Assembly (NCBI RefSeq): GCF_900313025.1
Contig: NZ_OMPQ01000009.1
Coordinates: 12 to 64,011, forward strand
DNA: 64,000 nucleotides
Direction: 5' to 3'
From: Pseudophaeobacter sp. EL27
GTDB taxonomy: Bacteria; Pseudomonadota; Alphaproteobacteria; Rhodobacterales; Rhodobacteraceae
Part shown: positions 35,386 to 53,233 of the stretch, in pieces
How the letters are laid out: every line of letters begins with the position of its first letter
Numbering within the stretch: position 1 is the first letter of the stretch
Notes under the pieces: model-generated
Told to the model about the DNA's origin: nothing
What the model saw: only the letters and a program-made list of their open reading frames with translations
The model's database searches: none
Program-made: the position numbers and the translations under genes

Positions 35386-35816
35386 ACAACACACCAGACG
35401 ACAGGCTCGCGCGCTTAAGAGAACGCTGTAAACACGGGCGGCAACAAGACGATGGCGTGTTGGTCATCCGAACGATTGCAATGCCCGCAGATACCAATCC
35501 AGCCGGCGATGTTTTCGGCGGTTGGTTGATGTCGCAGATGGATCTTGCCGCGGGAAATTTGGCTGCGCGTGCGTCTCAAGGCCGGGGTGCTACTGTTGCG
35601 GTTGAAGCCATGCAGTTTCTGCGCCCCGTCAAGGTCGGGGACGAAGTGACTATTTACGCCTCGCTATGTGCAGCTGGACGTTCATCAATGCGGATCCACG
35701 TCGATGTCTGGTCGCGCTCAAGGTTTGACAATGACTCTCAGAAAGTAACCGACGCAGATTTTGTCTTTGTCGCGCTGGATGAATTCGGGCAGCCGCGGGG
35801 GTTGGATGAGATATAG
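35382..35816 (+). CDS. YciA-like hotdog acyl-CoA thioesterase
   Basis: A 144-residue single-hotdog protein. NPAGDVFGGWLMSQMDLAAG holds the conserved asparagine/aspartate of acyl-CoA thioesterases, and VEAMQFLRPVKVGDEVTIYA the beta-sheet signature. It hydrolyses acyl-CoA thioesters; chain preference unknown. An ATGA overlap with the TRAP permease ties it to transport, hinting that the imported acid is handled as a CoA ester or that CoA is recycled (inference). Confidence 0.85.
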   Translation: MNNTPDDRLARLRERCKHGRQQDDGVLVIRTIAMPADTNPAGDVFGGWLMSQMDLAAGNLAARASQGRGATVAVEAMQFLRPVKVGDEVTIYASLCAAGRSSMRIHVDVWSRSRFDNDSQKVTDADFVFVALDEFGQPRGLDEI

Positions 35817-36339: not shown

Positions 36340-37245
36340 CTATCTTGCTGCCAATTTAAGTAATTGATCTGCGGATTGCTCGGCTATCCATCTGCAAATT
36401 GAATTGACTTCATTCTCACGTGGACCAGCTTCTCTTCTAACCAGATAATATGCACGATGTTCGCTCAAGGCTGCATCAAATAACTGAACGAGTGCCCCGT
36501 TTTTCAATTCTTCGTCGATAAGTGGAATCCACCCCATCACGATACCCTGTCCTGCAATTGCGGCCTGCAAAACAACATTTGTATCTTCGATAATTGGACC
36601 AGAAAGAGGCGTTTTCGACTGCACTGCTGCGGTTTCAAACCAGGCGTTCCAACCAAGTGTATCACGCTGGTGGATCAGCGGATAATGCAGCAGATCTGAT
36701 GGATTTTTGGGGTGCCCCAACCGTTTGATCAGTGAGGGACTCGCCACCGGGACGGTTTTAATATTGACCAGCGGTTCTGATTTCATCCCAGGAAAAATGC
36801 CGTCTCCCCAGGTAATGAAGATATCAGCATCCACGTTTTGCGGAGAGACGAGTAGCGGGGTCTGAACCAGTTCCAGATCTACCTTGGGGAATTGTTCACA
36901 GAATTCGTTGAACCTTGGCAGTACCCAGCGCGTGGCAAAGCTCGGCCCCATTGCGATCCGGACCTTGGTTTTCCGACGCTGGCTGGCAATGGAACTTACG
37001 GATGATTCCAGAATTCTGAATGCCTTGCTTACGCCATGTGCCAGACGCTCGCCTTCATCCGTCAGGTGCACCTGTCGCACGCGTCGCAAGAACAGTTTTT
37101 CTCCCAATTGCGCCTCCAGCCCCCGAATATGGTGACTGATGGCCGTTGGGGAAACACTGAGCTCTTCTGCGGCCTCCTGAAAACTGCCCAGTCGAGCAGC
37201 AGCTTCAAAAGCGCGAAGGGAAGGAAGTGAGGGCAGGGCGGTCAT
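36340..37245 (-). CDS. LysR family regulator, GcvA-like
   Basis: A 301-residue regulator. N-terminal winged helix LRAFEAAARLGSFQEAAEEL with recognition helix SVSPTAISHHIRGLE, typical of the GcvA branch, then a periplasmic-binding-like effector domain (VRIAMGPSFATRWVLPRFNEF). It is divergent from the methylamine-type operon, and the 110-base gap holds a clear LysR box. GcvA-type regulators often control C1/amine metabolism. Its inducer is presumably a pathway substrate or intermediate. Confidence 0.9.
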   Translation of the reverse strand: MTALPSLPSLRAFEAAARLGSFQEAAEELSVSPTAISHHIRGLEAQLGEKLFLRRVRQVHLTDEGERLAHGVSKAFRILESSVSSIASQRRKTKVRIAMGPSFATRWVLPRFNEFCEQFPKVDLELVQTPLLVSPQNVDADIFITWGDGIFPGMKSEPLVNIKTVPVASPSLIKRLGHPKNPSDLLHYPLIHQRDTLGWNAWFETAAVQSKTPLSGPIIEDTNVVLQAAIAGQGIVMGWIPLIDEELKNGALVQLFDAALSEHRAYYLVRREAGPRENEVNSICRWIAEQSADQLLKLAAR

Positions 37246-37256
37246 GCCGCATTATA

Positions 37257-37273
37257 GATGAGAAATACTCATC
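37257..37273. promoter_or_regulatory. LysR-type operator (T-N11-A dyad)
   Basis: GATGAGAAATACTCATC has perfect 6-base arms and fits the T-N11-A rule of LysR regulators. It lies 12 bases from the LysR start codon and about 83 before the methyltransferase ATG, so it could serve autorepression and activation of the operon. A further half-site GATGAG is at 37329-37334. Confidence 0.65.
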
Positions 37274-37355
37274 ATGCGCAAGAGAAATATGTTTTTGCCG
37301 CGATTGGGGGGCCTGCGTAGCAATACAGATGAGGAAATTGTGTTTGGAGTGGATC

Positions 37356-38900
37356 ATGGCGGGCAGAACGGGTCGAAGAGGCCGAGAGGCGCGACTTGAA
37401 AGCAATGCAAACCCAGTTGATGAGACGCCACCCGTTTGGGGGGGGCTGAACGGGGGCGGTTTCCGGCCTTTGAGTGACGCAGACATCAAAACCGTCGACG
37501 AGGCGGTGCTGACATTGCTGGAAACGCTTGGTTTATCACAAGCTTCGGCATCGATGATTGACCTGGTCTGCGCAGAAGGCGGGACCTACACAGGTGACAA
37601 AAGGCTGTTGTTTCCACGTGATCTGGTGCTCAGAACGATCGCGCAGGCGCGACGCGATGTTGTGCTCTATGGGCAGGATAAGGCCAACGATCTGAACCTC
37701 TCTGGCAGCCGTGTTCACATGAGTTCTGGTGGTGGGGCACCGGGTGTATTTGATCTCACGGATGGTCACTACCGCGATGGCACAGTGCAGGATCTCTACG
37801 ATGCAGCACGGATCTGTGATGCCATGGAGAACATTCACCATTTCAGCCGCTCGATTGTGGCCCGCGACATAGAAAATGTCGCTGAGATGGACCTGAACAC
37901 CGCCTATGCCTGCCTTATGGGAACGTCCAAACATGTGTCGGTTTCAGTCTCGGAGCCTGAAAATTTGGCGCAGCTGGCAGAGCTCTGCTACGCGCTGGCT
38001 GGCAGTGAAGCAGCGTTTCGCGCGCGCCCGTTTCTAACTGTAATGGTGTGCCACGTGGTGCCGCCGATGCGTTTTGCGGAAGAGGCCTTGGATACGCTGG
38101 AGGCCGCGGTTCTAGCCGGGTTCCCTGTGCAGCTGATTTCAGCAGGCCAGGCGGGCGCAACCAGCCCGGCGACGATTGCAGGATCACTTGTGCAAGCGGT
38201 TGCAGAGACGCTTGCTGGGTTGGTGTTCGCGCGCCTGGTTGATCCGAATGTAGCGGCTATTTTTGGCCCCAAACCCTTGGTGGCTGACCTGCGGACTGGG
38301 TCTATGTGTGCTGGCGGCGGCGAACAGGCGATCTTGATGGCGGCGGCGGCACAGATGGGCCGGTACTACGATCTGCCGACCACTTCGATTGCCGGGATCA
38401 CTGATTCAAAAACGCTTGATGCGCAATATGGCAGCGAAAAGAACCTCGCTGTTTCTTCTGCGGCCCATGCCGGATCAAACCTGATTACACAGGCCTGTGG
38501 GATGCAGGCCAGCCTGTTGGGGGTCTCGCTTGAGGCCTATGTCGTGGACAATGATATGCTGGGCAACATCCTGCGCACCGTGCGCGGCGTCGAGGTTAAC
38601 GTTGAAAACATCGGGGCCGAGGTCATTGCCGAAGTCTGTCGCGGTGAAGGGCATTACCTCGGGCATCGCCATACATTCAACCGGATGAAATCTGACTATT
38701 TCTACCCGCATCTAGGTGATCGGCAGACACCTCGGGAATGGGAAGCTGAGGGTTCACGCCCAATCGGAGATGTCGCCAAAGACAAGGCGCGCGAGTTGCT
38801 GGCAACCCATTATCCCGGTCATATTTCGGAAGAGAAAGACCAGGAACTGCGCGAGAGGTTTCGCATTCATCTGAGCCGCGAACAGATCGGCAGAAACTGA
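37356..38900 (+). CDS. trimethylamine methyltransferase (MttB)-family protein
   Basis: A 514-residue TIM-barrel protein of the MttB superfamily (ADIKTVDEAVLTLLETLGL ... LGTSKHVSVS-like segment, and the C-terminal KDKARELLATHYPG). Members move a methyl group from a quaternary amine to a corrinoid protein. There is no in-frame amber codon, so this is a non-pyrrolysine member, the class that contains the glycine-betaine methyltransferase. The ATG at 37356 (MAGRTGRRGREARLES) has GGAGTGG upstream; the frame opens earlier but without a ribosome binding site. No corrinoid protein or reactivase gene is present in this window. Confidence 0.88.
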   Translation: MAGRTGRRGREARLESNANPVDETPPVWGGLNGGGFRPLSDADIKTVDEAVLTLLETLGLSQASASMIDLVCAEGGTYTGDKRLLFPRDLVLRTIAQARRDVVLYGQDKANDLNLSGSRVHMSSGGGAPGVFDLTDGHYRDGTVQDLYDAARICDAMENIHHFSRSIVARDIENVAEMDLNTAYACLMGTSKHVSVSVSEPENLAQLAELCYALAGSEAAFRARPFLTVMVCHVVPPMRFAEEALDTLEAAVLAGFPVQLISAGQAGATSPATIAGSLVQAVAETLAGLVFARLVDPNVAAIFGPKPLVADLRTGSMCAGGGEQAILMAAAAQMGRYYDLPTTSIAGITDSKTLDAQYGSEKNLAVSSAAHAGSNLITQACGMQASLLGVSLEAYVVDNDMLGNILRTVRGVEVNVENIGAEVIAEVCRGEGHYLGHRHTFNRMKSDYFYPHLGDRQTPREWEAEGSRPIGDVAKDKARELLATHYPGHISEEKDQELRERFRIHLSREQIGRN

Positions 38901-40372
38901 TGCAAACCCATCCCGATTATCCGCAGCACCTGGCAGAGCTCCCGCATAATTTCATTGATGGTGTGGGGCAAACAGGTGCTGGAAAGGTTCGGACACTTCG
39001 TGATCCTGCCACCTATCAGGTAATCGTAGAACTTGCCGACGCCGATAGGTCTCAAGTCGCGCAGGCGGTTTCCAGCGCCGGACACGCCTTGCCGGTTTGG
39101 TCAGATACCGCGCCTGCGATCCGTGCGCGGGTGCTATTCCGGCTTGCGGGGTTGATCGAGGCGAAAGCCGGAGAGCTGGCCTCTGTCGAGGCACTCAATG
39201 TTGGCAAACCAATAGGTCAGGCAAAACGCGATGTGCAGCGTGCGGCGGATTATTTTCGGTTTTACGCTGGCTGCTGCGACAAGCTGCAGGGCGAAACAAT
39301 CCCGCTGGGGCCCGATCAGACGGCATTGACGGTCTTGGAGCCCATCGGGGTTACGGCCCATATCTTACCCTGGAACTATCCGGTTTCCACCCTTGCGCGC
39401 GGCGCCGGTCCTGCACTTGCAGTTGGTGCGACCATGGTGGCGAAGCCTTCTGAAAGCACGCCTCTCTCCGCGATCATGTTGGCCCAGTTGGGGCTTGAAG
39501 CTGGATTGCCGAGGGGCGCGTTCAACGTGATATGTGGCCCCGGCGAGATCGGAGAGGCGCTCGCCAGCGACAACACCGTCGCGCATGTGACCTTTACTGG
39601 ATCAACCGCGACGGGCCGCAAGATAATGCAGTCAGCCTCAAAACCCATTGCCGGGACCACCCTGGAATTGGGAGGGAAATCCCCGGTGGTTGTTCTGGCT
39701 GATGCTGATCTGGATGCCGCAGCAGATGGGGTCGTACGGGGGATTTTCTTTAATGCGGGGCAGGTTTGCGCCGCAGGTGCACGGCTGATCTGCGCGCGCT
39801 CGATCCACGATGCTTTGGTGAAAAAGGTGGTCGCAAAAGCCGAGGCTTTGACCATTGGGCATCCGCTGGACAACCCGGATCTGGGTCCACTGATTTCAGC
39901 GCAACATCTGGCTCGGGTCGAGGGGTTTGTCGACCGCGCCAAGTCCGAGGGGCTGACGTGTGCAGTAGGTGGCCACCGCGCCTGTCCGGATGGGCTAACG
40001 CAGGGGGCATTTTATGCGCCAACCGTTTTCACAAATGTCCCGGCTCACTCAGAAATTGCGCAGCAAGAAGTCTTTGGCCCGGTTCTGATTACCCAGATCT
40101 GTGACACTGTCGAACAGGCATTGGACCTGGCTAATGGCACTGCCTTTGGCCTGGTGGCGGGGGTTTACACGGCCGACATCACCCATGCGATGCAATTTGC
40201 CCGCAAAGTCGAGGCGGGCCAGGTCTTCATCAATGGCTTTTTGCAGGGCGGCGATACCGTGCCTTTTGGCGGTGTCAAAGAAAGCGGCATCGGTCGCGAA
40301 AAAGGACTGGCTGGGTTGGCCGCCTATTCAGCTGCCAAATCAATCATCATAAATCACCGGGACGCGTCATGA
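38900..40372 (+). CDS. NAD(P)-dependent aldehyde dehydrogenase
   Basis: A 490-residue ALDH-superfamily enzyme, closest in pattern to betaine-aldehyde/aminoaldehyde dehydrogenases. The general base Glu256 is in TTLELGGKSPVVV and the catalytic Cys290 in NAGQVCAAGARLI; WNYPVSTL is the cofactor-binding start of the fold. The ATG overlaps the methyltransferase stop (TGATG). In this operon it probably oxidises an aldehyde formed from the amine after demethylation and transamination (inference). Confidence 0.92.
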   Translation: MQTHPDYPQHLAELPHNFIDGVGQTGAGKVRTLRDPATYQVIVELADADRSQVAQAVSSAGHALPVWSDTAPAIRARVLFRLAGLIEAKAGELASVEALNVGKPIGQAKRDVQRAADYFRFYAGCCDKLQGETIPLGPDQTALTVLEPIGVTAHILPWNYPVSTLARGAGPALAVGATMVAKPSESTPLSAIMLAQLGLEAGLPRGAFNVICGPGEIGEALASDNTVAHVTFTGSTATGRKIMQSASKPIAGTTLELGGKSPVVVLADADLDAAADGVVRGIFFNAGQVCAAGARLICARSIHDALVKKVVAKAEALTIGHPLDNPDLGPLISAQHLARVEGFVDRAKSEGLTCAVGGHRACPDGLTQGAFYAPTVFTNVPAHSEIAQQEVFGPVLITQICDTVEQALDLANGTAFGLVAGVYTADITHAMQFARKVEAGQVFINGFLQGGDTVPFGGVKESGIGREKGLAGLAAYSAAKSIIINHRDAS

Positions 40373-41664
40373 TCACCAACCACTCCCTCGCGCAGCGCGC
40401 CAAACAGGTGATGCCCGGTGGTGTCAGTCACGAGCTACGTTATCGCGCGCCCTATCCCATCTATATCGACCGCGCACTTGGCGCCGAGAAATGGGATGTT
40501 GAAGGCAGGCGCTACATCGATTTCAAACTCGGTGCGGCCAGTCAGATACTTGGCAACTCCTGCCCGGAAGTGATGCAGGCGGTGGCTGAGCAGCTGACCA
40601 AAACGCCCTATACTGGCGACTGCCACGCGTTGGAAATTGAATGGGCAGAATGGATTTCCAAGCTGTTTCCATCGGCTGATCTGGTGCGATTTACCGGGTC
40701 GGGAACTGAAAGCACCATGCTGGCACTGCGCCTTGGTCGTGCCTATTCCGGCAAAGATAAGGTGCTGCGCATTGATGGGCACTTTCATGGCTGGCACGAC
40801 ATGTTGCTAAAGGGGGCCAAGCCCGGTGCAAACACGCCGCCCTCTTTGGGAGTTCCGACGGCGATCGCAGATTTGACGGTGGTGGCACCGCCTGAACTGG
40901 GCGCGATCCGAACCTTGTTGGAACAAGACGCAGCCATCGGCACGATTTTTGTAGAAGCGTCAGGGGCCAACTATGGATCTGTTCCATTGCCCAATGGATT
41001 TCTGCAAGGCATTCGTGACCTGGCGGATGAACAGGAAAAGGTGTTGATCTTTGACGAGGTGATCACCGGATTTCGCTGGTCTCCTGGCGGGCGACAGGCA
41101 CTGGATGGCGTCACGCCGGACATCACAACACTGGCCAAGGTTGCAACGGGTGGCTTGCCCGGTGGAGCAATCTGTGGGCGGCGCGACATTATGGACTTGC
41201 TTGACCCGAGCAAACCCCGAGACGGGTTGGCTCCGCCTGTCAGCCACAAGGGCACGTTTAACGCGGCCCCGCTGGTCGCAGCAGGTGCGATTGCCGCGAT
41301 GAAACTGCTATCAACCGGTGATGTGCAGCGCCAGGCAGATGCGATGGCCGCGCGGCTGCGCGACGGCATCAACGCCTGTTTTGCCCGCCGAAATATGGCT
41401 GCTGTAGCCTACGGAGACAGCTCAACATGTCACCTCTATTTCGGGGGCACATCCATTGAGGGCCTGAGTGCGGCAGAAATCCGTACAGTCTCGCCCGCGT
41501 TGGTCAATGGATTGCGTCATGGCCTGTTGGAAGGTGGCGTCGACTTCATGTCCTTCACGTCTTGTGTGACCTCTTGCGCCCATACGCCTGATCTAATTGA
41601 TGAAGCCCTTGATATCTTTGATGATGTCCTTGGGAAACTGACCGCTGATGGAGTGATCACATGA
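40369..41664 (+). CDS. class III aminotransferase (glutamate-1-semialdehyde aminomutase-like)
   Basis: A 431-residue PLP enzyme. VMPGGVSHELRYRAPYPIYI, RFTGSGTESTMLALRLGRAY, FDEVITGFRWSPGG and the PLP lysine in TLAKVATGGLPGGAICG mark the GSA-aminomutase-like subgroup, which in operons like this usually acts as an omega-aminotransferase rather than in heme synthesis. It overlaps its neighbours by ATGA on both sides. It would remove nitrogen once all methyl groups have gone. Confidence 0.9.
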   Translation: MITNHSLAQRAKQVMPGGVSHELRYRAPYPIYIDRALGAEKWDVEGRRYIDFKLGAASQILGNSCPEVMQAVAEQLTKTPYTGDCHALEIEWAEWISKLFPSADLVRFTGSGTESTMLALRLGRAYSGKDKVLRIDGHFHGWHDMLLKGAKPGANTPPSLGVPTAIADLTVVAPPELGAIRTLLEQDAAIGTIFVEASGANYGSVPLPNGFLQGIRDLADEQEKVLIFDEVITGFRWSPGGRQALDGVTPDITTLAKVATGGLPGGAICGRRDIMDLLDPSKPRDGLAPPVSHKGTFNAAPLVAAGAIAAMKLLSTGDVQRQADAMAARLRDGINACFARRNMAAVAYGDSSTCHLYFGGTSIEGLSAAEIRTVSPALVNGLRHGLLEGGVDFMSFTSCVTSCAHTPDLIDEALDIFDDVLGKLTADGVIT

Positions 41665-44081
41665 ATTCCCTGCCGCAAAATGCCCGCACCGTGATCATTG
41701 GTGGCGGTGTCATTGGATGTTCCATCGCCTATCATCTGGCGCGCGAAGGCCGCAAAGATATCGTGGTCCTGGAACGCTCTAAACTGACCTCTGGCACCAC
41801 CTGGCATGCGGCTGGCCTGGTGCGCCGCCTGCGCCCATCAGCCACGCTAACCAAGCTGATCAACTATTCCATCGATCTCTATAAAGAACTGGAAGTTGAG
41901 ACCGGACAAGGCACTGGCTGGACCCAAACCGGCAGCCTGTCGATTGCCACCAATGAGGACCGGCTGACGACTTTGAAACGTCAGGTGTCGCTGGGTCGTG
42001 CCTTTGGGCTAGAGGCCGAAATTGTCGACCGCAAACAGGTCGAGGAACTCTGGCCATTGTTGCGAACGGATGATGTCATCGGAGCAGTACATTCGCCGGT
42101 CGACGGCCGGGTAAATCCCTCGGATGTAGCTTTGGCGCTGTCCAAGGGCGCGCGTGCGCGTGGGGTGCAGTTCTTTGAAGAGACCCGCGTTACCGGGCTG
42201 CAGAAAAAGGGCTACCGTATCAGCGGCGTTGAAGTTGGCGACCATGTGATAGAGGCCGACGAAGTGGTGATTGCCTGCGGGTTATGGTCGCGCGAAGTTG
42301 CGCAAATGGCGGACGCAAACATGCCGCTTTACGCCTGCGAGCATTTCTACATGCTGACAAAACCTGTGCCCGAAGTGCAGGCCCTGGGCAAAGGGGTACA
42401 CCTGCCAACGCTGAACGACCAGGACGCGTTCCTCTATGCCCGCGATGATGTCGAGGGGCTTTTGGTCGGTTGTTTTGAGCCGCATGCAAAAGGCCTTCCG
42501 ATGGAAAAGCTCCCTGCCGATTTCAGCTTTGATCTGCTGGGCGAAGATTGGGACCATTTCATGCCAATGATGGAGAACGCGCTCCACCGCATTCCGGCGT
42601 TGGAAAAGGCCGAGGTTCGGATGCTGCTGAACGGGCCTGAGAGCTTCACATTGGACAGTCAGTTCATGATGGGCGAAAGCCCCGAAGTGCCGGGTTTATT
42701 CCTCATGGGGGGCATGAATTCCACCGGCATCGCTCTTGCGGGGGGCGCTGGTATGGCGATGGCCCAATGGATCATCGCGGGTGAGCCGACTATGGAGTTG
42801 AACGAGGCTGACATTCGTCGTTTTGGCCCCGAAATGAATGTGCTTGGTGCGCTTGAAGCCCGTATCCCCGAGGTGCTGGGGCGGCACTATGACATTGCCT
42901 ATCCGGGGCTGAGCATGCACACAGCCCGCGGCCAGCGCCGCAGCCCGATCCATTCAGGAACCTCTGCAGCAGGGGCAAAGTTCCTGACCAGAGGTGGCTG
43001 GGAAAGGCCTGAGTATTATGCAGCCGATACCGTTGACGCTCCGCTGACATTTGGGGAGCCACCATGGCGTGAACAGGTTGGGCGTGAGGTCGAGGCCTGC
43101 CGCAGTGGCGCTGCCATTCTGGACCAGTCGGCCTTTGGTAAAATCATGGTGCAGGGACCGGATGCAACGGATTTTCTAAACCGGGTCTGCGCCGCCGAAA
43201 TGAAGGTGGCGCCAGGTCGGATTGTGTACAGTCAGATCTTAAACATGCGGGGCGGGATTGAGTCTGACATCACCGTTCAACGCCACGGCGCTGAGACATA
43301 TATGCTGATTGTCGGCGCAGGCGAAGTTACCCGCGATTTGATACGGTTGAGGTCAGCCAAAGCAGACTTTCAAGTTGAGCTTACCGATGTAACCTCGGGC
43401 TACGCCATTATGGGCCTTGCCGGGGCGCAGGCACGCGCGGTTCTGCAAAAAGCATCCAGCGACACACTGCCCGATCTTAACCGGTTCCAGTTTGCTCCGG
43501 TCGAGGTTGGACTGGCGCGGGGCTGGGCCGGACGGCTGAGTTACACCGGGGAAGATGGTTTTGAGCTCTATTTTCCTGCCGATATGGCCATGGCCGCATA
43601 TGAGGCCTTGGTAGCGGCCGGGGCCGCCCATGCAGGACTAACCGCCAGCGGCAGTTTGCGGATCGAAAGCGGGTTTCGCGCTTGGGGCCATGAAATGTCC
43701 CCTGGTGTCACCCCGTATGAGGCCGGAACCGAGGCGTTCTTAGGCTGGAACAGTGATTTCACCGGCAATGAGGCGCTCAGCGCCTTGCGTAATACACCGC
43801 CTAAACGGCGCATCGTTTCGATGCTTTTCGATGATCCGGACGCAATCCCGATCCACGATGAGCCAATTTGGCGGAATGGCAGAGTGGTTGGGCAGATCAC
43901 CTCCTCTGCGTGGAGCTATCTTTTCAATCGCTCAGTTGCATTGGCCATGGTGGAGGCTCCACTGGACGAACTGGCCTGCAACGACATCGTCGATGGGTTT
44001 GAGGTGGAAATTGCCTGTGCGCGTTACGCCGCCAAAGCCTCTCTCAAACCTGCCAAAACTGCATTCAGGAACCGGACATGA
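41661..44081 (+). CDS. GcvT-family FAD-dependent demethylase 1
   Basis: An 806-residue dimethylglycine/sarcosine-dehydrogenase-type protein: N-terminal DAO domain (1-390) with VIIGGGVIGCSIAYHLARE and the flavin-linking histidine in TSGTTWHAAGLV, FAO_M linker, then GcvT folate-binding domain (about 430-700) and GcvT C-barrel. Such enzymes oxidise an N-methyl group and transfer the carbon to tetrahydrofolate. It is followed by a paralogue with an ATGA overlap, so two successive N-methyl groups are probably removed. Confidence 0.92.
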   Translation: MNSLPQNARTVIIGGGVIGCSIAYHLAREGRKDIVVLERSKLTSGTTWHAAGLVRRLRPSATLTKLINYSIDLYKELEVETGQGTGWTQTGSLSIATNEDRLTTLKRQVSLGRAFGLEAEIVDRKQVEELWPLLRTDDVIGAVHSPVDGRVNPSDVALALSKGARARGVQFFEETRVTGLQKKGYRISGVEVGDHVIEADEVVIACGLWSREVAQMADANMPLYACEHFYMLTKPVPEVQALGKGVHLPTLNDQDAFLYARDDVEGLLVGCFEPHAKGLPMEKLPADFSFDLLGEDWDHFMPMMENALHRIPALEKAEVRMLLNGPESFTLDSQFMMGESPEVPGLFLMGGMNSTGIALAGGAGMAMAQWIIAGEPTMELNEADIRRFGPEMNVLGALEARIPEVLGRHYDIAYPGLSMHTARGQRRSPIHSGTSAAGAKFLTRGGWERPEYYAADTVDAPLTFGEPPWREQVGREVEACRSGAAILDQSAFGKIMVQGPDATDFLNRVCAAEMKVAPGRIVYSQILNMRGGIESDITVQRHGAETYMLIVGAGEVTRDLIRLRSAKADFQVELTDVTSGYAIMGLAGAQARAVLQKASSDTLPDLNRFQFAPVEVGLARGWAGRLSYTGEDGFELYFPADMAMAAYEALVAAGAAHAGLTASGSLRIESGFRAWGHEMSPGVTPYEAGTEAFLGWNSDFTGNEALSALRNTPPKRRIVSMLFDDPDAIPIHDEPIWRNGRVVGQITSSAWSYLFNRSVALAMVEAPLDELACNDIVDGFEVEIACARYAAKASLKPAKTAFRNRT

Positions 44082-46480
44082 CCAGAACGACACAGGTCGC
44101 CATCATTGGCGGTGGCATCATGGGGGTCGCAGCTCAGTTGCAATTGGCTGAGAACGGCTGGACCGACACGATTTTGTTTGAAAAAGCTGAGCTGACCTCC
44201 GGGTCGACATGGCATGCTGCAGGGCAGATCGCCCATGCGGTGGGCAGCCGGGTATCGGGATGGATCAACAAGACCTCACTGGAGCTATATAAGCGGATCG
44301 AAACAGAAACCGGCCAAAGCATTGGCTGGCATGAGGTCGGCGGGTTCCGCATCGCAACGACGGATGACGAAGTGGATTGGATGAAGTCCATCATGGGTGT
44401 TGGGCGCCTGTTGGATTTGCCGATGGAGCTTGTTGGACCTGAAGAGGTCGCCAAAGGTAATCCATTTTACAAAGTCGACGACGTCAAAGCAGCTGTCCAG
44501 ACCTTTGAAGATGGGCACATTGACCCCAGCTCAGTCACCATGGCCCTGGCTGCCGCATCGCGTGCGCGAGGGGCCAAGATTGAGCGCCATAATCAGGTCA
44601 CAGGTGCCAGTCGCAAGGGTGACATGTGGCTCTTGCAGACTGAAAAGGGTGAAATCCTTGCCGAACATGTGGTGATTGCCGCTGGGTCATATGCCAATCA
44701 GGTCGGCGAATGGTTCGGCTTGAAAATACCGTCGGTGTCCTGCCTGCACCATTACCTTGTTACAGACACGGTGCCGGAATTTGTGGGCCGTCCGGAATTG
44801 CCGGTCATGCGCGACAATGCATTTGGAGGTTACATCCGCCAGGAACAAAGATCCGGGTTGATCGGAATTTACGAGGGCCATATTTGCCCAACAGTTTGGA
44901 CCATGCCTGAAGGCGCTCCGTGGAAGGCCGAAAACGAGCTGTTTGAAGCGGACTATGACAGCATCGGCGATTTCCTGATGACTGCTTTTGATAAAATGCC
45001 CATTCTGGCTGACTTGGGCATCAAACGGGTTGTGCGGGGGGCCATCACTCACACGCCGGATGGTGGAATGTTGGTCGGGCCCTCCGGTGCACCAAATGTC
45101 TGGCTGTCCTGTGGGTCATCCATTGGCCTGGCCTGGGGCGGAGGCGCCGGCAAGGTACTGGCTGACTGGATGGTGCAAGGCGAAACGGAGATTAATACGC
45201 GTTCCATGGATCCGCGTCGTTATGGCGATTTTACCACTGGCAACTATATCGTGGAACGCACCAAAGATGAATTCATGCGCCGCCATGACACCCCCTGTCC
45301 TGGCAAACAATTTGAAAGCCTGCGACCCTTGAAACGGCACGTGCTCTATGACCGACTGGTGGCTAAAGGCGCGGTTATGGGTGAGGTCGCAGGCTGGGAA
45401 CGGCCCCGATATTTTGGTGAGGTCGGGGAGGTCGAGCAAATTGGTTGGGGGCATCAGAGCTGGCACGAAAATGCCGCACGCGAGGCAAAAGCCACACGCG
45501 ACGGCGCCGGTGTGATGGATCTTTGCGCCTTTGCACAGTTTGAAATCATCGGCCTTGATGCAGGCAAACTGCTGGATCGTCTCTCGGCAAACAGGATCCC
45601 GGCTCGGGATGGGCGGATCAGTCTGAACCATCTGCTTACGCCCAAAGGCCGGTTTGAGACCGAAATCACCATCTGGCGTATTGGCGAAGATCGCTATTTC
45701 ACTGGCTCTGCCATCGCCCGTGCAAATCCCGATTTTGATTGGATCAAATCCCATATTCGGGAGGGTGAAGATGTCCAGATGATCAACCACTCGCGTGATT
45801 GGGGGATGCTGGCAATGTCTGGTCCCAATTCGCGTAAAATCCTATCCCAACTGACCAATGCCGACCTATCAAACGCGGCCTTTCCCTGGTTGTCAGGGCA
45901 AGAGATAAAGGTGGCGGGAATTCCGGTTTACGCCCTGCGTGTATCCTTTGTCGGGGAACTGGGCTGGGAGCTGCATGCGCCCCTTGACCGGATCGCCGAC
46001 CTATATGACGCGCTATTCTTTGCAGGTGACAAACATGGGTTAACCGATCTCGGCAGCTATGCATTCAACGGCATGCGCATGGAAAAAGCCTACCGCGCAT
46101 CGGCAGAACTGACCACAGATGTCGGACCATTGGATGTGGGGCTGGACCGCTTTGTTGTTGCGGAAGGTCGGGAATTCACCGGGCGCGAGGCGCTTTTGAA
46201 CCGCACCCCTGGGTGGCAGCTGTATTATGCTGAACTGCATGACGGCGAGATTGACATCCACGGCGGAGAGCCCGTGCTGTTGAATGGGGCGCCCGTTGGT
46301 CTGACGACTTCGGGCGGATATGGATACAGCACCGGCAAATCCCTTGGCTGGCTCTTTGTGAGAAAGGGCACGCCACGCGATGGGCTGGTGGTGCAGATCC
46401 TAAACCGTGAAATCCCGGTGACGGTGCATGAGGACGCCTTGTTTGATCCGCAAAATCTACGCCCAAGGCAGGATGTATGA
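44078..46480 (+). CDS. GcvT-family FAD-dependent demethylase 2
   Basis: An 800-residue paralogue of the preceding protein with the same DAO-FAO_M-GcvT-GcvT_C order: VAIIGGGIMGVAAQLQLAEN, TSGSTWHAAGQIAHAVGSRV with the flavin histidine, and a GcvT block (GVMDLCAFAQFEIIG, YAFNGMRMEKAYRASAEL). It is clearly diverged from demethylase 1 (the Rossmann and WHAAG loops differ), so different substrates are likely rather than simple duplication. Its last codons overlap a 55-codon ORF by ATGA. Confidence 0.92.
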   Translation: MTRTTQVAIIGGGIMGVAAQLQLAENGWTDTILFEKAELTSGSTWHAAGQIAHAVGSRVSGWINKTSLELYKRIETETGQSIGWHEVGGFRIATTDDEVDWMKSIMGVGRLLDLPMELVGPEEVAKGNPFYKVDDVKAAVQTFEDGHIDPSSVTMALAAASRARGAKIERHNQVTGASRKGDMWLLQTEKGEILAEHVVIAAGSYANQVGEWFGLKIPSVSCLHHYLVTDTVPEFVGRPELPVMRDNAFGGYIRQEQRSGLIGIYEGHICPTVWTMPEGAPWKAENELFEADYDSIGDFLMTAFDKMPILADLGIKRVVRGAITHTPDGGMLVGPSGAPNVWLSCGSSIGLAWGGGAGKVLADWMVQGETEINTRSMDPRRYGDFTTGNYIVERTKDEFMRRHDTPCPGKQFESLRPLKRHVLYDRLVAKGAVMGEVAGWERPRYFGEVGEVEQIGWGHQSWHENAAREAKATRDGAGVMDLCAFAQFEIIGLDAGKLLDRLSANRIPARDGRISLNHLLTPKGRFETEITIWRIGEDRYFTGSAIARANPDFDWIKSHIREGEDVQMINHSRDWGMLAMSGPNSRKILSQLTNADLSNAAFPWLSGQEIKVAGIPVYALRVSFVGELGWELHAPLDRIADLYDALFFAGDKHGLTDLGSYAFNGMRMEKAYRASAELTTDVGPLDVGLDRFVVAEGREFTGREALLNRTPGWQLYYAELHDGEIDIHGGEPVLLNGAPVGLTTSGGYGYSTGKSLGWLFVRKGTPRDGLVVQILNREIPVTVHEDALFDPQNLRPRQDV

Positions 46481-46644
46481 AAGATGTCTGCAAAAACACG
46501 ACCCTCTGTGGATCTGTATCCACCAGCAAAACAGGTGGCTTTTGCACCAGCCAGAAAACCATTCCTTGGCGAAAACAAGGGCGCGCTTATCTGGCGCCCG
46601 CGCAAGCGCCTTACACTCATAACCTCAACGAAGGGCAAATCTGA
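46477..46644 (+). CDS. candidate 55-aa small protein, coupled at both ends
   Basis: A 55-codon frame that starts in the stop of the demethylase-2 gene (ATGA, 46477-46480) and stops in the start of the ThDP-enzyme gene (TGATG, 46642-46646). It therefore fills the only gap in an otherwise coupled operon. The product, MKDVCKNTTLCGSVSTSKTG and so on, has four cysteines' worth of Cys-rich N-terminal half (three Cys) and a Lys/Arg-Ala-Pro C-terminal half. No family is recognised. Start and stop positions are what suggest that it is translated; a ribosome binding site is not obvious. Confidence 0.45.
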   Translation: MKDVCKNTTLCGSVSTSKTGGFCTSQKTIPWRKQGRAYLAPAQAPYTHNLNEGQI

Positions 46645-48320
46645 TGTCTGATCTGATCACCGGGGGTGAAGCCGTCTATAATGTTCTGAAAGCCAATAAC
46701 ATCGACACCGTCTTTGGCTTGTTGGGCGGCTCGATGCTTGAGCTATACGACGCCATGTATAAGGGCGGTGATATTGCCTATGTTGGTGGGCGCGATGAGC
46801 GCGCAGCGGGGCATATGGCTGACGCTTGGGCCCGAATGACCGGCAAACCGGGCGTTGTTCTGGGCGCTCAGGCGGGACCGGGGGTGGTGAACATTGTAAC
46901 GGCGGTTGCCGAGGCGCAGCTTGCCTATTCTCCGATGGTAGTCATTGCTGGGGCAATCAGCCGCTGCGATCACGCAAAGGACACCTTTCAAGAAATCGAC
47001 CAGGTGGCGCTTTTTGCGCCGATCAGCAAAAAATCTGTGCTGGTCAGTGATGCAGCGCGCCTGCCTGTGATGCTCGAAGACGCCATACGCCTCGCCAATT
47101 CGGGTCGTCGTGGTCCGGTTGTTCTGCATGTGCCGCGTGATCTTTTTGCCGAAATGATCCCGGCCAATGATGCTCAACCCGTGAATATCGCGCGTGCCGG
47201 CCCTGCTGCACCGGATGATATCGCGGCGATTGCAGAGCTTTTGGCACAGGCGAAACGGCCGGTGATTTTTGCCGGTGGCGGGTTCAAATGGGGCAAGGGC
47301 CGCGACGCGCTGACAGCCCTGGCCGAGAAACTGGAAGTGCCAGTTGTTGCTTCGACCGGGCACGCCGACATCATGCGCCATGGTCACGCCTGGTTCGCCG
47401 GTCAGGCTGGCCCTCGCGGCAACCGTGTGGCTTCTCGGCTGACCAAAGAAGCCGATGTAATGGTGGTGCTGGGCGCGCGGCTTGGGTTCAACTCGACCTT
47501 CCATTCTAACGACTATGTTGGAGCAGACACCCGTATTGCTCATGTGGATATTGATGGCAGTGCTGTGGGGCGCTACTTTCCTGCGGAAATAGCCGTACAG
47601 GCCGATGCACGGCAGACTGCCGAGGCGCTGACAAAAGCTGCTTTCAAACCTGACGCTGATGAATGGCGCCAGTGTTTCCGTGAGGATTGGGCAGGCTTGT
47701 GCGTTGAGCGCTCCGAGGAAGCGCAAATAGCGACCCTGCCAATGCACCCGCGCCGGGCATTGGCCGAACTGCGCGAGGCCCTGCCGCAAGACGCCATCGT
47801 CACGCTGGATACAGGCAATACCTGCCTGCAGGGGGCGGATCGTCTGGCCCATTACGAACCTCTGTCATTGATCACGCCGCTGGACTTTGGGCTGGTTGGC
47901 TTTGGTCTGGCCGCAGCCATCGGCGCCAAGGCCGCAAGCCCTGAACGCCCGGTTGTTGCCATCATGGGTGACGGAGCCCTCGGCTATACAATGATCGAGA
48001 TTCAGACCGCGATACAACATGGTCTGCCAATCGTTGTGGTGGTTCTGGATAATGAGGCTTGGGGCGCTGAAAAGGCGTATCAGGAAGAGTTCTATGGTGG
48101 TCGCCTGTTAGGAGCAGAAATCCAATCACCACGCTACGACAAATTTGCTGAACTTTGTGGCGGAAAAGGCATCTGGGTTGATGGCCCCGGCGCATTGGGA
48201 GCGGCATTGACCAGTGCAATTCAGAGCAATCAAACCGCGATTATTCAGGCCAAGATCGATCCCAAAGCCCTGATGACCCTGCGCAAGGATCTGTTCAAAA
48301 AGACGGGTGAGGAAACATGA
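46644..48320 (+). CDS. thiamine-diphosphate-dependent enzyme, acetolactate-synthase/decarboxylase type
   Basis: A 558-residue ThDP enzyme. Catalytic Glu52 is in GGRDERAAGHMADAW. The central domain (PVIFAGGGFKWGKGRDAL) is a typical ThDP-enzyme dehydrogenase-like middle, and MGDGALGYTMIEIQTA with DNEAWG binds magnesium-ThDP near residue 440. It is not Xsc (sulfoacetaldehyde acetyltransferase), whose N-terminus differs clearly. It probably decarboxylates or ligates a 2-oxo acid in the pathway. A GAAGGG ribosome binding site lies before the ATG. Confidence 0.88.
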   Translation: MSDLITGGEAVYNVLKANNIDTVFGLLGGSMLELYDAMYKGGDIAYVGGRDERAAGHMADAWARMTGKPGVVLGAQAGPGVVNIVTAVAEAQLAYSPMVVIAGAISRCDHAKDTFQEIDQVALFAPISKKSVLVSDAARLPVMLEDAIRLANSGRRGPVVLHVPRDLFAEMIPANDAQPVNIARAGPAAPDDIAAIAELLAQAKRPVIFAGGGFKWGKGRDALTALAEKLEVPVVASTGHADIMRHGHAWFAGQAGPRGNRVASRLTKEADVMVVLGARLGFNSTFHSNDYVGADTRIAHVDIDGSAVGRYFPAEIAVQADARQTAEALTKAAFKPDADEWRQCFREDWAGLCVERSEEAQIATLPMHPRRALAELREALPQDAIVTLDTGNTCLQGADRLAHYEPLSLITPLDFGLVGFGLAAAIGAKAASPERPVVAIMGDGALGYTMIEIQTAIQHGLPIVVVVLDNEAWGAEKAYQEEFYGGRLLGAEIQSPRYDKFAELCGGKGIWVDGPGALGAALTSAIQSNQTAIIQAKIDPKALMTLRKDLFKKTGEET

Positions 48321-49057
48321 GCGCTCCAGTTCTACCGCGAACCGAATTGGAAGCCCGTCAACAGCTCTCGGCCCTCTATCGCTTGTGTCACCTCTATGGC
48401 TGGACGGATCTGACGAGTACGCATATTTCGACCCGCATTCCGGGTCGTGACGACGCCTACTTAATGAATGCTCATGACGAATTGTTTGACGAAATCACCG
48501 CCTCGTCACTGTGTGAAATCGGCTTTGACGGTCAGATGCGCACACCGGGCAGAGTTCTGAACCAAGCGGGTCATGAGATCCATTCTGCCGTCCTGAAGGC
48601 GCGGCCTGAGGTCAATTTTGTCCTGCACAGCCATACCCGGGCAGGGGTTGCAGTGTCAGCAATGCCGCAGGGGCTTTTGCCGATCTCGCAGCATTCGGGG
48701 TTTGTTCTGGGAAGCCTTGCGACACACCCGTTTCAGGACAGCACTGCGGTGGCTGACGAAGGCGCTGCACTGGCGGCGGATCTTGGCGCGAATTACACTA
48801 TGCTGTTGCAGAACCACGGCCTGCTGGCGGTGGGGCGGACCGCGGCAGAGGTGTTCATGTACCATTATCACCTTGAAGCGTCCTGCAAGATCCAGGCGGA
48901 TGTATTGGGGGCGGTGCAAAACCCAATTCTGATACCCGATGCGGCGTTGGATCCACTTTTGGCCTGGGGCGCGCCTGAAAACGGCCCGCACGGTGGTCAC
49001 GTGTGGCCAGCCTTGTTGCGGCGTTTGGAACGAGAGCAACCAGGCTATGACCAGTAA
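48317..49057 (+). CDS. class II aldolase/adducin family protein
   Basis: A 246-residue zinc aldolase-fold protein. NFVLHSHTRAGVAVSA and QNHGLLAVGRTAAEVF contain the His/His and His of the metal site and the catalytic region near residue 165. Overlaps the ThDP gene by ATGA and the TcuA gene by 11 bases. It may cleave or form a hydroxy acid from the freed skeleton; the exact substrate cannot be read from sequence. Confidence 0.88.
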   Translation: MSAPVLPRTELEARQQLSALYRLCHLYGWTDLTSTHISTRIPGRDDAYLMNAHDELFDEITASSLCEIGFDGQMRTPGRVLNQAGHEIHSAVLKARPEVNFVLHSHTRAGVAVSAMPQGLLPISQHSGFVLGSLATHPFQDSTAVADEGAALAADLGANYTMLLQNHGLLAVGRTAAEVFMYHYHLEASCKIQADVLGAVQNPILIPDAALDPLLAWGAPENGPHGGHVWPALLRRLEREQPGYDQ

Positions 49058-50441
49058 GACAGAGATGGACTGTGAAGTCGTAATCATCGGCGGTGGCAAT
49101 GCTGCGCTTTGTGCTGCGATCACGGCGGCAATGGCGGGCGTCCGCGTGTTGATTTTGGAGGCCGCTCCCAAAGAGTACCGTGGCGGTAACTCGCGTCACA
49201 CCCGCAATTTCCGCTGCATGCACGATGGCCCCCTATCGGTGTTGACCGGGCATTACGACGAAGAAGAATACTACAATGATCTGCTCCTGGTCACCAAAGG
49301 CAACACGGACGAGCATCTCGCCCGGATCGCCATTCGGGGCAGTCAGGATAGCCAACCCTGGATGGAGGCGAACGGGGTCAGGTTTCAGCCCGCCCTGTCC
49401 GGCACGCTTAGCCTCAGCCGGACCAATGCGTTCTTTCTCGGCGGCGGTAAGGCTTTGGTGAATGCCTATTACCGCAGGGCCGAGGCGCTTGGAGTCAAGG
49501 TGCGCTACAACGCTCATGTTGATCATCTGGTGCTAGAAGGGGACCGGATTACCCGCGTTGACTTCACGGAAAACAGCAAAAGCCACAGCCTGTCCCCCAA
49601 GGCGGTGATCGTGGCTGCAGGTGGGTTTCAGGGAAGTATCGAACGGTTGGTAAAGGCCTGGGGTCCTGAGGCGGAAAACTTTCTAATCCGTGGCACCCCC
49701 TACAACCGCGGTGACGTGCTATTTGACCTGTTGGACCAGGGGGTTCAATCCATCGGCGATCCGACCCAGTGTCACGCGGTGGCCATTGACGGGCGCGCGC
49801 CCAAATTTGACGGCGGCATTGTCACGCGGCTGGACTGTGTACCGTTTTCGGTGGTGGTCAACAAACATGCCAAACGGTTCTATGACGAAGGTGAAGATGT
49901 CTGGCCCAAACGCTATGCCATTTGGGGGCGCCTTGTGGCGGCGCAGGAAGAACAGGTGGCCTATTCCATCATTGACGCAAAGTCCAAGGACCTGTTCATG
50001 CCATCGGTCTTCCCCCCCATTTGCGCGGGTAGTATTCCTGAGCTTGCCAAAAAACTTGGGTTGGAACCTGAAGCCCTGGCCAGCACCATCACCGAATTCA
50101 ATGGGTCCTGTCAGGCTGGAAACTTTACCCCAACCGAGCTGGACAATCTTGCAACCAAAGATCTGGAGCCACCCAAAACCAATTGGGCGCGCCCCATCGC
50201 CGAGGCGCCGTTTTACGCCTATTCGCTGCGTCCCGGGGTAACTTTTACCTATTTAGGGCTCAAAGTGGATGAAACAGCACAAGTGCAGGGGCAGGAGGGA
50301 CCAGTTGCAAACCTGTGGGCTGCAGGAGAGACGATGGCCGGGTCCATTCTTGGTCAGGGATATCTGGCAGGGTTTGGCATGACAATTGGCACGGTGTTTG
50401 GTCGCATTGCTGGAGAGGAGGCCGCTGCCTATGTCAAATAA
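49047..50441 (+). CDS. tcuA: FAD-dependent tricarballylate dehydrogenase-like TcuA
   Basis: A 464-residue flavoprotein. The N-terminus CEVVIIGGGNAALCAAITA, followed by RGGNSRHTRNFRCMHD, matches the TcuA signature of the succinate-dehydrogenase/fumarate-reductase flavoprotein superfamily. TcuA oxidises tricarballylate to cis-aconitate. GNEK...NAFFLGGGKALVNAYY supports the group. The ATG at 49047 opens 11 bases before the aldolase stop and avoids a 36-codon N-terminal overhang. In this context its substrate may be another polycarboxylate. Confidence 0.85.
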   Translation: MTSKTEMDCEVVIIGGGNAALCAAITAAMAGVRVLILEAAPKEYRGGNSRHTRNFRCMHDGPLSVLTGHYDEEEYYNDLLLVTKGNTDEHLARIAIRGSQDSQPWMEANGVRFQPALSGTLSLSRTNAFFLGGGKALVNAYYRRAEALGVKVRYNAHVDHLVLEGDRITRVDFTENSKSHSLSPKAVIVAAGGFQGSIERLVKAWGPEAENFLIRGTPYNRGDVLFDLLDQGVQSIGDPTQCHAVAIDGRAPKFDGGIVTRLDCVPFSVVVNKHAKRFYDEGEDVWPKRYAIWGRLVAAQEEQVAYSIIDAKSKDLFMPSVFPPICAGSIPELAKKLGLEPEALASTITEFNGSCQAGNFTPTELDNLATKDLEPPKTNWARPIAEAPFYAYSLRPGVTFTYLGLKVDETAQVQGQEGPVANLWAAGETMAGSILGQGYLAGFGMTIGTVFGRIAGEEAAAYVK

Positions 50442-51489
50442 AGCTATATCCGAAGCACGCCGACAGATAGAAATCTGCAACGCCTGCCGATATTGCGAAG
50501 GCTATTGCGCGGTATTTCCTGCACTCACCAGACAAGCGGCTTTTGCAGATGGTGATATCACACAACTCGCCAATCTGTGCCACAATTGCAGGGGATGTTA
50601 TTATGCCTGCCAATACACTGAACCACATGAGTTTGCCCTGAACCTGCCAAAGTTATTGGCTGAAGTGCGTCAGGAAAGCTGGCAGGACAATGCCTGGCCA
50701 CAGGGGGTTGCGCGCAGGTTTCACCGGTCTGGCGTTGCGATCGCGATAGTGGTCATCATTTGCTTTGCTCTTCTTTTTGCGACCGCGCGCTGGATTGGTT
50801 CTGCGGGTGGGGATGGCTTTTATGCCATTCTGAGTCACAACATGATGGTCGCAATCTTTGTGCCGGCATTTCTGGTTCCTTTGCTCTCCATCTGGATCAG
50901 TTTGCGCCGATTTTGGAAATCTATCGGCGGGCAACCCCTTGGGCCTAAGGCCGGAATTGCCGCTCTGTCCGATGCAGCCCGAATGAAAAACCTTTCAGGT
51001 GGCCACGGCGAAGGCTGCAATTTCGAGGATGAGGATCGCTTTACTAGGCAGCGCAGCATCAGCCATCAATTGACAATGTGGGGATTTCTGCTGTGCTTTG
51101 CGGCTACGGCCTCAGGCACGATCCTGCACTATGTCTTCGCCATGCCCGCCCCTTATGAGTTGGTCTCATTGCCCAAGATCCTAGGCATCAGCGGCGGGCT
51201 GATGCTGTCCTTGGGAACCGCCAAGTTGGCATGGCTCAAACCAAAAGGAGACAAGGCCCTTGGAGACCCACGTGTCTGGGGCGGAGAAATGGCTTTCATT
51301 CTGTTATTGTTTACTGTCTCAACCTCTGGTCTGGCGCTCTATGGCGCAGGTGCAACAGCTTGGATGCCCACGCTTCTGGCTTTGCATTTAGGATCGGTTC
51401 TCTCGTTTTTCCTGTTGATGCCATATTCAAAAATGGCACACGGGTTTTATCGCTTAGCAGCACTCATTCGCGACGCACAGATAAAGTGA
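50431..51489 (+). CDS. tcuB: TcuB-like 4Fe-4S membrane electron-transfer protein
   Basis: A 352-residue protein that passes electrons from TcuA flavin to the membrane quinone pool. Two clustered cysteine motifs, CNACRYCEGYCAVF (near residue 15) and CHNCRGCYYACQ (near 50), bind Fe-S clusters, and about six membrane helices follow. It overlaps tcuA by 11 bases. Missing a tcuC-type transporter, so uptake may rely on the TRAP system 16 kb upstream or on another importer. Confidence 0.85.
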   Translation: MSNKAISEARRQIEICNACRYCEGYCAVFPALTRQAAFADGDITQLANLCHNCRGCYYACQYTEPHEFALNLPKLLAEVRQESWQDNAWPQGVARRFHRSGVAIAIVVIICFALLFATARWIGSAGGDGFYAILSHNMMVAIFVPAFLVPLLSIWISLRRFWKSIGGQPLGPKAGIAALSDAARMKNLSGGHGEGCNFEDEDRFTRQRSISHQLTMWGFLLCFAATASGTILHYVFAMPAPYELVSLPKILGISGGLMLSLGTAKLAWLKPKGDKALGDPRVWGGEMAFILLLFTVSTSGLALYGAGATAWMPTLLALHLGSVLSFFLLMPYSKMAHGFYRLAALIRDAQIK

Positions 51490-52029
51490 TCCCGATGAGT
51501 GTCGTAAGTGTTGCTTTAGTGTTTGTTGCGGTGTGACGGTTAAGAAGGCCGAAGTTGGCGGTTCGTTGTGAACACCAGACCTTCGCCTAGCTACAAAGCT
51601 CGCCACCTGTGGAAACGGCAGCTTTCGGAAAGCTGCACTGCAGCACAAGCTGGTTGCTCAACGGCCGGTTTGGGCCGTTCGTTCCATATGAAACCCCTTA
51701 GCCGAACCATTTTAAAAAGGTCGAGACCTGCAATAAGCTTCGTTTACCAAGATGGGTTGCGCCTCACAGCCAACAGGCCGTGGCAGTCTCGAACAAATTC
51801 ACAAAGAGAAGCGCTCCGAATGGGCGCTTTCCTTGTTCAATACATCTCCAGGAACAAACTATTCTTTGCAAATCCGCACCAAGATCCATTACTGGACAGC
51901 ATCTATCCTTGGCAAAAACTACCCCCTCACAGATTTTCATTTTTATATTTGTTATCAATATCTTACTGACGAATCACCCCATTTGAAGTCAGCCTCAAAT
52001 GAGTAGTCTGATTTAGTGAGGGGCACGTC
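51490..52029. other. 540-bp lower-GC intergenic region
   Basis: Follows the operon end and is lower in GC than its neighbours. A near-palindromic hairpin (51809-51829, AAGCGCTC/GGGCGCTT arms with one mismatch) followed by TTCCTTGTT is a weak terminator candidate. No gene family, RNA gene or insertion sequence was recognised in the many short frames. Confidence 0.45.
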
Positions 52030-53200: not shown

Positions 53201-53233
53201 AAAACGACGCCAACCCCAATCGGGCTGGCGTCG
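53201..53233 (-). terminator. rho-independent terminator of nrdJ
   Basis: On the minus strand a 12-bp GC-rich stem (CGACGCCAGCCC with GGGGTTGGCGTCG, one mismatch, four-base loop) is followed by TTTT, about 120 bases after the nrdJ stop. Good intrinsic terminator geometry. The DNA between 52877 and 53200 holds no recognisable gene. Confidence 0.8.

Follow-up and report, generated by a model that had tools for sequence, protein, structure and literature searches.

A ten-gene operon was confirmed in a 64,000-nucleotide stretch of the Pseudophaeobacter sp. EL27 genome (contig NZ_OMPQ01000009.1, positions 12 to 64,011 of the forward strand; hereafter the window). It runs nearly without gaps from a gene for an MttB-superfamily methyltransferase, probably beginning at ATG 37356, to the end of a TcuB-like gene at 51489, and may encode the breakdown of a trimethylammonium compound. 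An earlier interpretation made from the letters alone, referred to here as the sequence-only reading, had named its products as MttB, an aldehyde dehydrogenase (ALDH), a class III aminotransferase, two GcvT-type proteins (here FADa and FADb), a thiamine diphosphate (ThDP) enzyme, a class II aldolase, TcuA and TcuB, and all of these families were recovered by Pfam and NCBIfam scores (Table 1).

Table 1 Features of the operon and its divergent regulator in the window. Loci are the relatives retained in the comparison described below; GcvT-type loci encode both FADa and FADb.
Feature	Positions	Strand	Assignment and conservation
LysR-type regulator, GcvA-like, divergent from operon	36340..37245	-	PF00126 + PF03466
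Divergent intergenic region, 110 bases, LysR start to ATG 37356	37246..37355
MttB-superfamily methyltransferase, core	37356..38900	+	PF06253, 431.9 bits (cut-off 25); 46/46 loci; open reading frame opens at GTG 37227
Aldehyde dehydrogenase (ALDH), accessory	38900..40372	+	PF00171; 15/46 loci
Class III aminotransferase, D-phenylglycine-aminotransferase/HemL branch, GcvT-type core	40369..41664	+	PF00202; 40/41 GcvT-type loci
FADa, predicted DMGDH-like oxidative N-demethylase with folate domain, GcvT-type core	41661..44081	+	41/46 loci
FADb, predicted DMGDH-like oxidative N-demethylase with folate domain, GcvT-type core	44078..46480	+	41/46 loci
Small open reading frame, 55 amino acids, accessory	46484..46651	+	same frame open in relatives
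ThDP enzyme, Xsc-like, below Xsc cut-off, core	46644..48320	+	three TPP domains
Class II aldolase-family protein, rare accessory	48317..49057	+	PF00596; 1/46 loci
TcuA-like FAD dehydrogenase, accessory	49047..50441	+	above NF006130 and TIGR02485 cut-offs
TcuB-like Fe-S membrane protein, accessory	50431..51489	+	above TIGR02484, below NF011607 cut-off; 6/46 loci

The close packing described earlier was borne out. Adjacent genes overlap at seven junctions, as TGATG or ATGA at MttB/ALDH, ALDH/aminotransferase, aminotransferase/FADa, FADa/FADb and ThDP/aldolase, and by 11 bases at aldolase/TcuA and TcuA/TcuB (ATG 49047 and ATG 50431). The only gap is the 163-base FADb-ThDP spacer (46481-46643), which contains the small open reading frame. 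The GTG start of the MttB frame is probably too far upstream; the start was set at ATG 37356 because the annotated copies on two Ruegeria plasmids are 514 amino acids long (1545 bases). The small open reading frame is more likely to be the 55-amino-acid frame given in Table 1, which is kept open in three relatives: L043 and L061 (a single Paenihalocynthiibacter genome), L098 (Thalassobius sp. I31.1) and L109 (Halocynthiibacter). Looser versions occur in L047 and L068, and most loci have fewer than 20 bases between FADb and ThDP and no such frame. An RNA element had been suspected in this spacer and was set aside: Rfam searches found nothing at gathering level anywhere in the window and nothing in 46300-46800 at E values up to 5, and the frame is open in close relatives.

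The MttB frame is open throughout with no in-frame amber codon, and its product scored 331.1 bits against the TIGR02369 equivalog, short of the cut-off of 525. The protein is a non-pyrrolysine member of the MttB superfamily, for which demethylation of a quaternary amine is predicted. Seven MttB proteins are encoded in the EL27 genome, together with two pterin-binding proteins and one PF02607 corrinoid protein bearing a DIHDIGKN stretch; the latter is encoded outside the operon, adjoining an open reading frame that we take to encode a DUF1638 protein. Amber-free MttB members assayed to date are reported to demethylate quaternary amines (PMC8604678, PMC12155760). The single corrinoid protein and the pair of pterin-binding proteins match the shared MtgC/MtgD system described for Ruegeria pomeroyi by Mausz et al., who note that aerobic marine bacteria have as many as seven PF06253 proteins and propose diverse methylated compounds as their substrates (PMC12478193).

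FADa and FADb are 31% identical to each other and share the domain order DAO, FAO_M, GCV_T and GCV_T_C. Against dimethylglycine dehydrogenase (DMGDH), FADa scored 448 bits over residues 7-785 and FADb 504 bits over residues 6-789, and both proteins share with DMGDH a TWHAAG stretch, the histidine of which presumably carries the flavin. Their architecture and near full-length match suggest that both are oxidative N-demethylases of the DMGDH/SARDH type. Ten DMGDH-like matches were found in the EL27 genome. The nearest solved relative of the aminotransferase was D-phenylglycine aminotransferase (264.6 bits, the best of 176 sequences), with GSAM at 218.1 bits, and the protein fell below the HemL cut-offs (295.6 bits against 398 for NF000818, 279.5 against 527.3 for TIGR00713). 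The sequence-only reading had named an aldehyde as the product; since the enzyme lies nearest to D-phenylglycine aminotransferase, whose product is presumably a 2-oxo acid, and then to HemL, a 2-oxo acid is at least as likely.

A scan at one genome per species yielded 130 relatives of the ThDP enzyme, of which the best 80 loci were retained. Fifty-five of these (L061-L115) were examined, the remainder (L116-L140) being left out at 28-31% identity (L125, 48%). ThDP identity of at least 60% was reached in 52 of the 55, and 46 also carried at least 8.5 kb upstream (three, then six, loci dropped); some of the 46 are closely related, so they do not count as independent. Relatives of the ThDP enzyme at 44-45% (L110, L111 and L113, and the 48% fragment L125) were set aside, as the pathway genes did not lie beside them. 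MttB was present in all 46 loci and both FADa and FADb in 41, and 40 of those 41 also encode the aminotransferase. By these presence counts the smallest unit therefore consists of MttB, the aminotransferase, FADa, FADb and the ThDP enzyme, the set annotated in R. pomeroyi. The comparison of gene order that had been put forward as a check showed the core order recurring in many genomes; the operon is more than a chance assembly. The product of the LysR-type gene scored 280.8 bits against NF008352 (GcvA), slightly below the cut-off of 288. A LysR gene lies inside the scanned stretch in 39 of the 46 loci, and the divergent region between the regulator and MttB is likely to hold the promoter and the regulator site. 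No description of the gene set as found here was located in the open-access literature searched, supplements aside, in agreement with the earlier remark that it matches no known pathway.

In the other five loci FADa, FADb and the aminotransferase are jointly absent, and a single old-yellow-enzyme (OYE)-like protein of about 650 amino acids follows MttB. These loci belong to Pelagibius (L099), Silicimonas (L104), Limibaculum (L105) and two alphaproteobacterial bins (L101, with an amidase gene between the OYE-type protein and the ThDP enzyme, and L103). Both modules were found together in none of the 46 loci, and no locus lacked both, so that one flavoenzyme appears to replace three enzymes. Clusters without GcvT proteins, which the sequence-only reading had held would speak against it if they used the same substrate, thus exist, but the GcvT proteins are replaced in them by the OYE-type protein. 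The order MttB-OYE-ThDP was also seen in two further genomes of another family at 52-61% identity, and on a short gammaproteobacterial contig (L106) the OYE-type gene lies directly 5' of the ThDP gene, the contig ending before MttB. In the MttB tree, the 11 GcvT-type sequences formed one clade (100/99) nested in a 16-sequence clade with five OYE-type sequences (100/97); the two additional MttB-OYE-ThDP genomes and some MttB proteins of other clusters fell outside it. The OYE-type protein of L101 scored 269.2 bits with FadH, 255.2 with NCR and 166.9 with trimethylamine dehydrogenase, and lay under all NCBIfam cut-offs listed (best, mycofactocin OYE 2, 587.4 against 793.15). The replacing protein, a multidomain old yellow enzyme, aligns near full length with these enzymes but is put forward here for a different role, C-N bond cleavage or demethylation following the MttB step. 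Most simply read, the two modules convert the dimethylamino product of MttB into the same carbonyl compound. The swap would then predict intermediates ahead of the substrate, a dimethylamino compound in and a carbonyl compound out, and so narrow the search. Genes of the MmgE/PrpD family were seen near the OYE-type cluster in L104 (11947-18905) and L099 (12189-15832), together with hydantoinase A and B genes in the former and a cytosine/purine-type permease in the latter; by eye, L105 (17743-21608) also seems to have a hydantoinase pair.

The remaining genes are accessories rather than core. The sequence-only reading had treated ALDH, the class II aldolase and TcuA/TcuB as needed steps, a claim that did not hold across the relatives: ALDH was found in 15 of the 46 loci, an amidase in nine, TcuB in six, the aldolase in one, and TcuA-like proteins in 22 (seven of the window's type, 15 of a second type). 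Counts downstream are lower bounds where contigs end early; at least 4.5 kb downstream was available in 36 of the 41 GcvT-type loci. Two sub-types of the aminotransferase were distinguished by identity to the window copy among the 41 loci that encode both FAD enzymes together with an aminotransferase (L087 in, L115 out). ALDH or the amidase accompanied 17 of the 21 loci at 70-85% identity and none of the 20 at 57-63%. ALDH scored under every NCBIfam cut-off listed (best, BADH, 459.5 bits against 668.6), the aldolase passed that of NF005451 (235.4 bits against 207), and TcuA passed those of TIGR02485 and NF006130 (663 against 369 for the latter). TcuB exceeded TIGR02484 (347.6 against 246.6) and missed NF011607 (399.1 against 524). 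Each of the two proteins thus clears at least one cut-off for tricarballylate dehydrogenase TcuA/TcuB, and both are optional in the conserved cluster. Near the clusters of L076, L079 and L103 lies a gene for a protein of about 380 amino acids that looks by eye like a betaine-type Rieske oxygenase. Beside the cluster of the closest relative (L041, genome G347, 16023-19493) are a gene weakly like glycerate 2-kinase (264 bits, cut-off 550), a B12-binding subunit gene and a gene for methylaspartate mutase subunit E (709 bits, cut-off 390).

Taken as a whole, the operon is read here, with a probability of about 0.6, as a catabolic route for a trimethylammonium compound, R-N+(CH3)3, with the steps assigned from enzyme families. 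MttB would transfer the first methyl group to tetrahydrofolate by way of the MtgC-type corrinoid protein encoded in the genome, and FADa and FADb would strip off the other two by oxidation, with folate as the acceptor. The aminotransferase would then convert the primary amine to a carbonyl compound, most likely a 2-oxo acid, which the ThDP enzyme would decarboxylate or cleave. Where present, ALDH would oxidise the resulting aldehyde, and TcuA (with or without TcuB), the amidase and the aldolase would handle side-chain variants. In OYE-type clusters one flavoprotein would do the work of FADa, FADb and the aminotransferase, probably by converting the dimethylamino compound into that same carbonyl compound. 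The scheme of one demethylation, then two more, then C-N cleavage, first suggested by the sequence-only reading, thus gains comparative support from the 41 of 46 loci with both FAD enzymes, the 40 of 41 with the aminotransferase and the joint absence in five; its individual reactions stay at the level of prediction. Gene content, gene order, conservation and module replacement were observed. What would be new is a variant of MttB-initiated, folate-linked betaine breakdown, which is itself known. In the glycine betaine route described for R. pomeroyi (MtgB/MtgC/MtgD; PMC12478193), an MttB-superfamily enzyme and the shared corrinoid protein likewise take the first methyl group, and DMGDH-like enzymes with folate as acceptor appear to take the next two; the operon differs in using another MttB branch and in having its own aminotransferase and ThDP enzyme. 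MtpB, MtcB, MtyB and MthB of Eubacterium limosum are also non-pyrrolysine MttB relatives, each reported for particular quaternary amines (PMC8604678, PMC12155760), but these come from an anaerobic acetogen, and the present operon instead adds enzymes for complete nitrogen removal.

Several points weigh against this interpretation. All of the reactions and the substrate class are inferred, the reactions from families. The ThDP enzyme groups with sulfoacetaldehyde acetyltransferase (Xsc) and not with a known 2-oxo-acid decarboxylase, which fits an amino-acid substrate less well, and one GcvT-type locus, L115, has no aminotransferase. TcuA/TcuB, the aldolase and the amidase have no evident step in the scheme, and no transporter travelling with the core was found among the relative loci. 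The OYE-type proteins appear closer to FadH and NCR than to trimethylamine dehydrogenase. A survey of PF11927, a dimethylamine demethylase family, was intended to back dimethylamine release and gave no support: the family was present in two of six OYE-type genomes and 12 of 14 GcvT-type genomes, the 20 genomes being hand-chosen and several of them incomplete bins.

Within the trimethylammonium reading, our best guess for the substrate class is an alpha-amino-acid betaine that, once demethylated, lacks an ordinary route of catabolism. Such a betaine is favoured because the aminotransferase's nearest solved relative presumably gives a 2-oxo acid, and with a 2-oxo acid product the ThDP and ALDH genes would be the customary pair for decarboxylation and then oxidation. 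An unusual demethylated amine is to be expected, because common amino acids would need no dedicated aminotransferase and ThDP enzyme. Glyceryl-homoserine derived from the betaine lipid DGTS would fit, as speculation. It is a long shot that the core represents the first route for breaking down the head group of a marine betaine lipid, such as glyceryl-trimethylhomoserine from DGTS. On that proposal the product of three demethylations would be an unusual ether of an amino acid, which the aminotransferase and a ThDP enzyme of a new subfamily would shorten, and ALDH and TcuA-type desaturation would open the ether; elsewhere the OYE-type enzyme would expel dimethylamine in place of three enzymes.

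It is unlikely that the one-plus-two arrangement is coincidental, with MttB and the FAD enzymes having separate methylated substrates, or a common one other than a trimethylated compound, such as one with a dimethylated ring nitrogen. The MttB superfamily is reported to take in proline betaine demethylases (PMC8604678), so the number of methyl groups is not readable from gene number alone, and the genome holds many MttB and DMGDH-like proteins, as noted above. A ring nitrogen, however, is not simply releasable by an aminotransferase, and the fact that the two FAD enzymes and the aminotransferase are absent together points to a single nitrogen on which all of them act.

The resemblance of the ThDP enzyme to Xsc, the final enzyme of taurine breakdown, keeps two further substrate types in play. 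One is taurobetaine (N,N,N-trimethyltaurine), which would be demethylated three times to taurine and transaminated to sulfoacetaldehyde, from which a divergent Xsc would release sulfite and acetyl phosphate. Two Xsc models give the ThDP enzyme its top NCBIfam scores (402.0 and 382.4 bits), the protein has a WGAEK stretch and further local motifs in common with the Xsc of the same genome, a tree groups it with Xsc (support 90/90, long branches), and the five core enzymes would be enough. Like Xsc, the ThDP enzyme follows a class III aminotransferase. The enzyme nevertheless reached only 378.2 bits against TIGR03457 (Xsc), where the cut-off is 676.4 and the genome's true Xsc scored 927.7, and the aminotransferase belongs to the HemL/D-phenylglycine branch. 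Genes for sulfite handling or phosphotransacetylase were not noted in the annotated R. pomeroyi and Ruegeria sp. THAF33 stretches, other loci not being searched for them. Taurobetaine is rated unlikely.

The other type, a choline ether such as the head group of the algal lipid DGCC, is very doubtful. Diatoms contain the betaine lipid DGCC, and after demethylation and transamination of the head group an Xsc-like ThDP enzyme might eliminate its beta-alkoxy group to acetyl phosphate. In R. pomeroyi the neighbouring tag SPOA0310 appears under the heading 'Glycine' in a list of genes whose relative expression was higher in late diatom co-culture (PMC9723723). This proposal requires an unproven ThDP reaction, and the aminotransferase branch hints at a carboxylate near the amine. 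A second glycine betaine route, through glycine to glyoxylate and a glyoxylate carboligase-like ThDP enzyme, has fitting gene logic, DMGDH-like FAD enzymes and the weak glycerate 2-kinase-like gene near one relative's cluster on its side but is highly improbable, given that R. pomeroyi is described as having such a route already at other loci (PMC12478193), that glycine needs neither aminotransferase nor ThDP enzyme, and that among solved structures glyoxylate carboligases score far under acetolactate synthases for this ThDP enzyme.

Upstream of the operon, 28888-35816 encodes a Cache-domain histidine kinase, a sigma-54 response regulator, an NMT1-like binding protein, a DctM-type TRAP permease and a thioesterase, apparently a separate regulated uptake unit adjoining the operon. 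The two-component regulator and TRAP transporter (28888-35385) were considered as the operon's uptake system and excluded from the unit because they had no matches in 23 and 56 relative loci within the flanks covered. About 1.9 kb past TcuB (51490-53356) carry no gene that could be recognised, the four open reading frames tested there giving no Pfam match; a ribonucleotide reductase gene follows on the opposite strand. MttB proteins at 47-51% identity in about eight loci were assigned to other clusters; in L040 and L056-L058 such an MttB adjoins one DMGDH-like protein. In L059 and L060, MttB relatives (about 50%) are followed by ketopantoate-reductase-like and FAA-hydrolase-family genes (Pfam on L060 only). 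In L075, L077 and L102 a further MttB relative, at 22-23%, lies 3-10 kb downstream together with a DMGDH-like gene and what looks by eye like a gene of the enolase superfamily, apparently another methylated-compound cluster.

MttB had a match at E ≤1e-100 in 240 of the order's 390 genomes surveyed, and one of at least 65% identity in 16, EL27 included, the next being 50%. The best MttB E-values in two other genomes of the same genus (5e-131 and 9e-128) were weaker than those of all sixteen, and across the class a ThDP match at E ≤1e-200 was found in three of 385 genomes, again including EL27. This patchy spread suggests horizontal movement, and the unit lies on large plasmids in two cases, the megaplasmid of R. 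pomeroyi DSS-3 and a plasmid of Ruegeria sp. THAF33. Base composition adds little to this case: third-position G+C is 0.56-0.65 in the operon genes and 0.61-0.76 in most flanking genes, and the overall G+C of 38-50 kb (0.56-0.59) is within the window's usual range.

On the R. pomeroyi megaplasmid, a TcuA relative follows the ThDP gene as two adjoining pieces with no annotated gene (L038, 27294-28749). The core genes there are SPO_RS21400 (MttB), SPO_RS21395 (aminotransferase), SPO_RS21390 and SPO_RS21385 (FADa and FADb) and SPO_RS21380 (ThDP enzyme). SPO_RS21380 is the only ThDP gene noticed between megL and the partition genes, a DXS-like gene lying beyond megL. Counting down from megL, given as SPOA0318 in PMC9870897, SPO_RS21380 corresponds to SPOA0308 or SPOA0309, depending on the old tag of one hypothetical gene, and SPOA0310 would then be FADb or, less likely, FADa. 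SPOA0309 is named sulphoacetaldehyde acetyltransferase in the R. pomeroyi reannotation (PMC4334477), a label for the ThDP gene that finds no support when the window copy is scored against the family. During growth on glycine betaine, the PF06253 proteins described as induced are the chromosomally encoded SPO2108 and SPO2134, and not that of the megaplasmid cluster (PMC12478193). The operon thus offers a concrete, testable case of one marine PF06253 protein, with a core that is conserved in many marine genomes, that of the genetic model R. pomeroyi DSS-3 among them.

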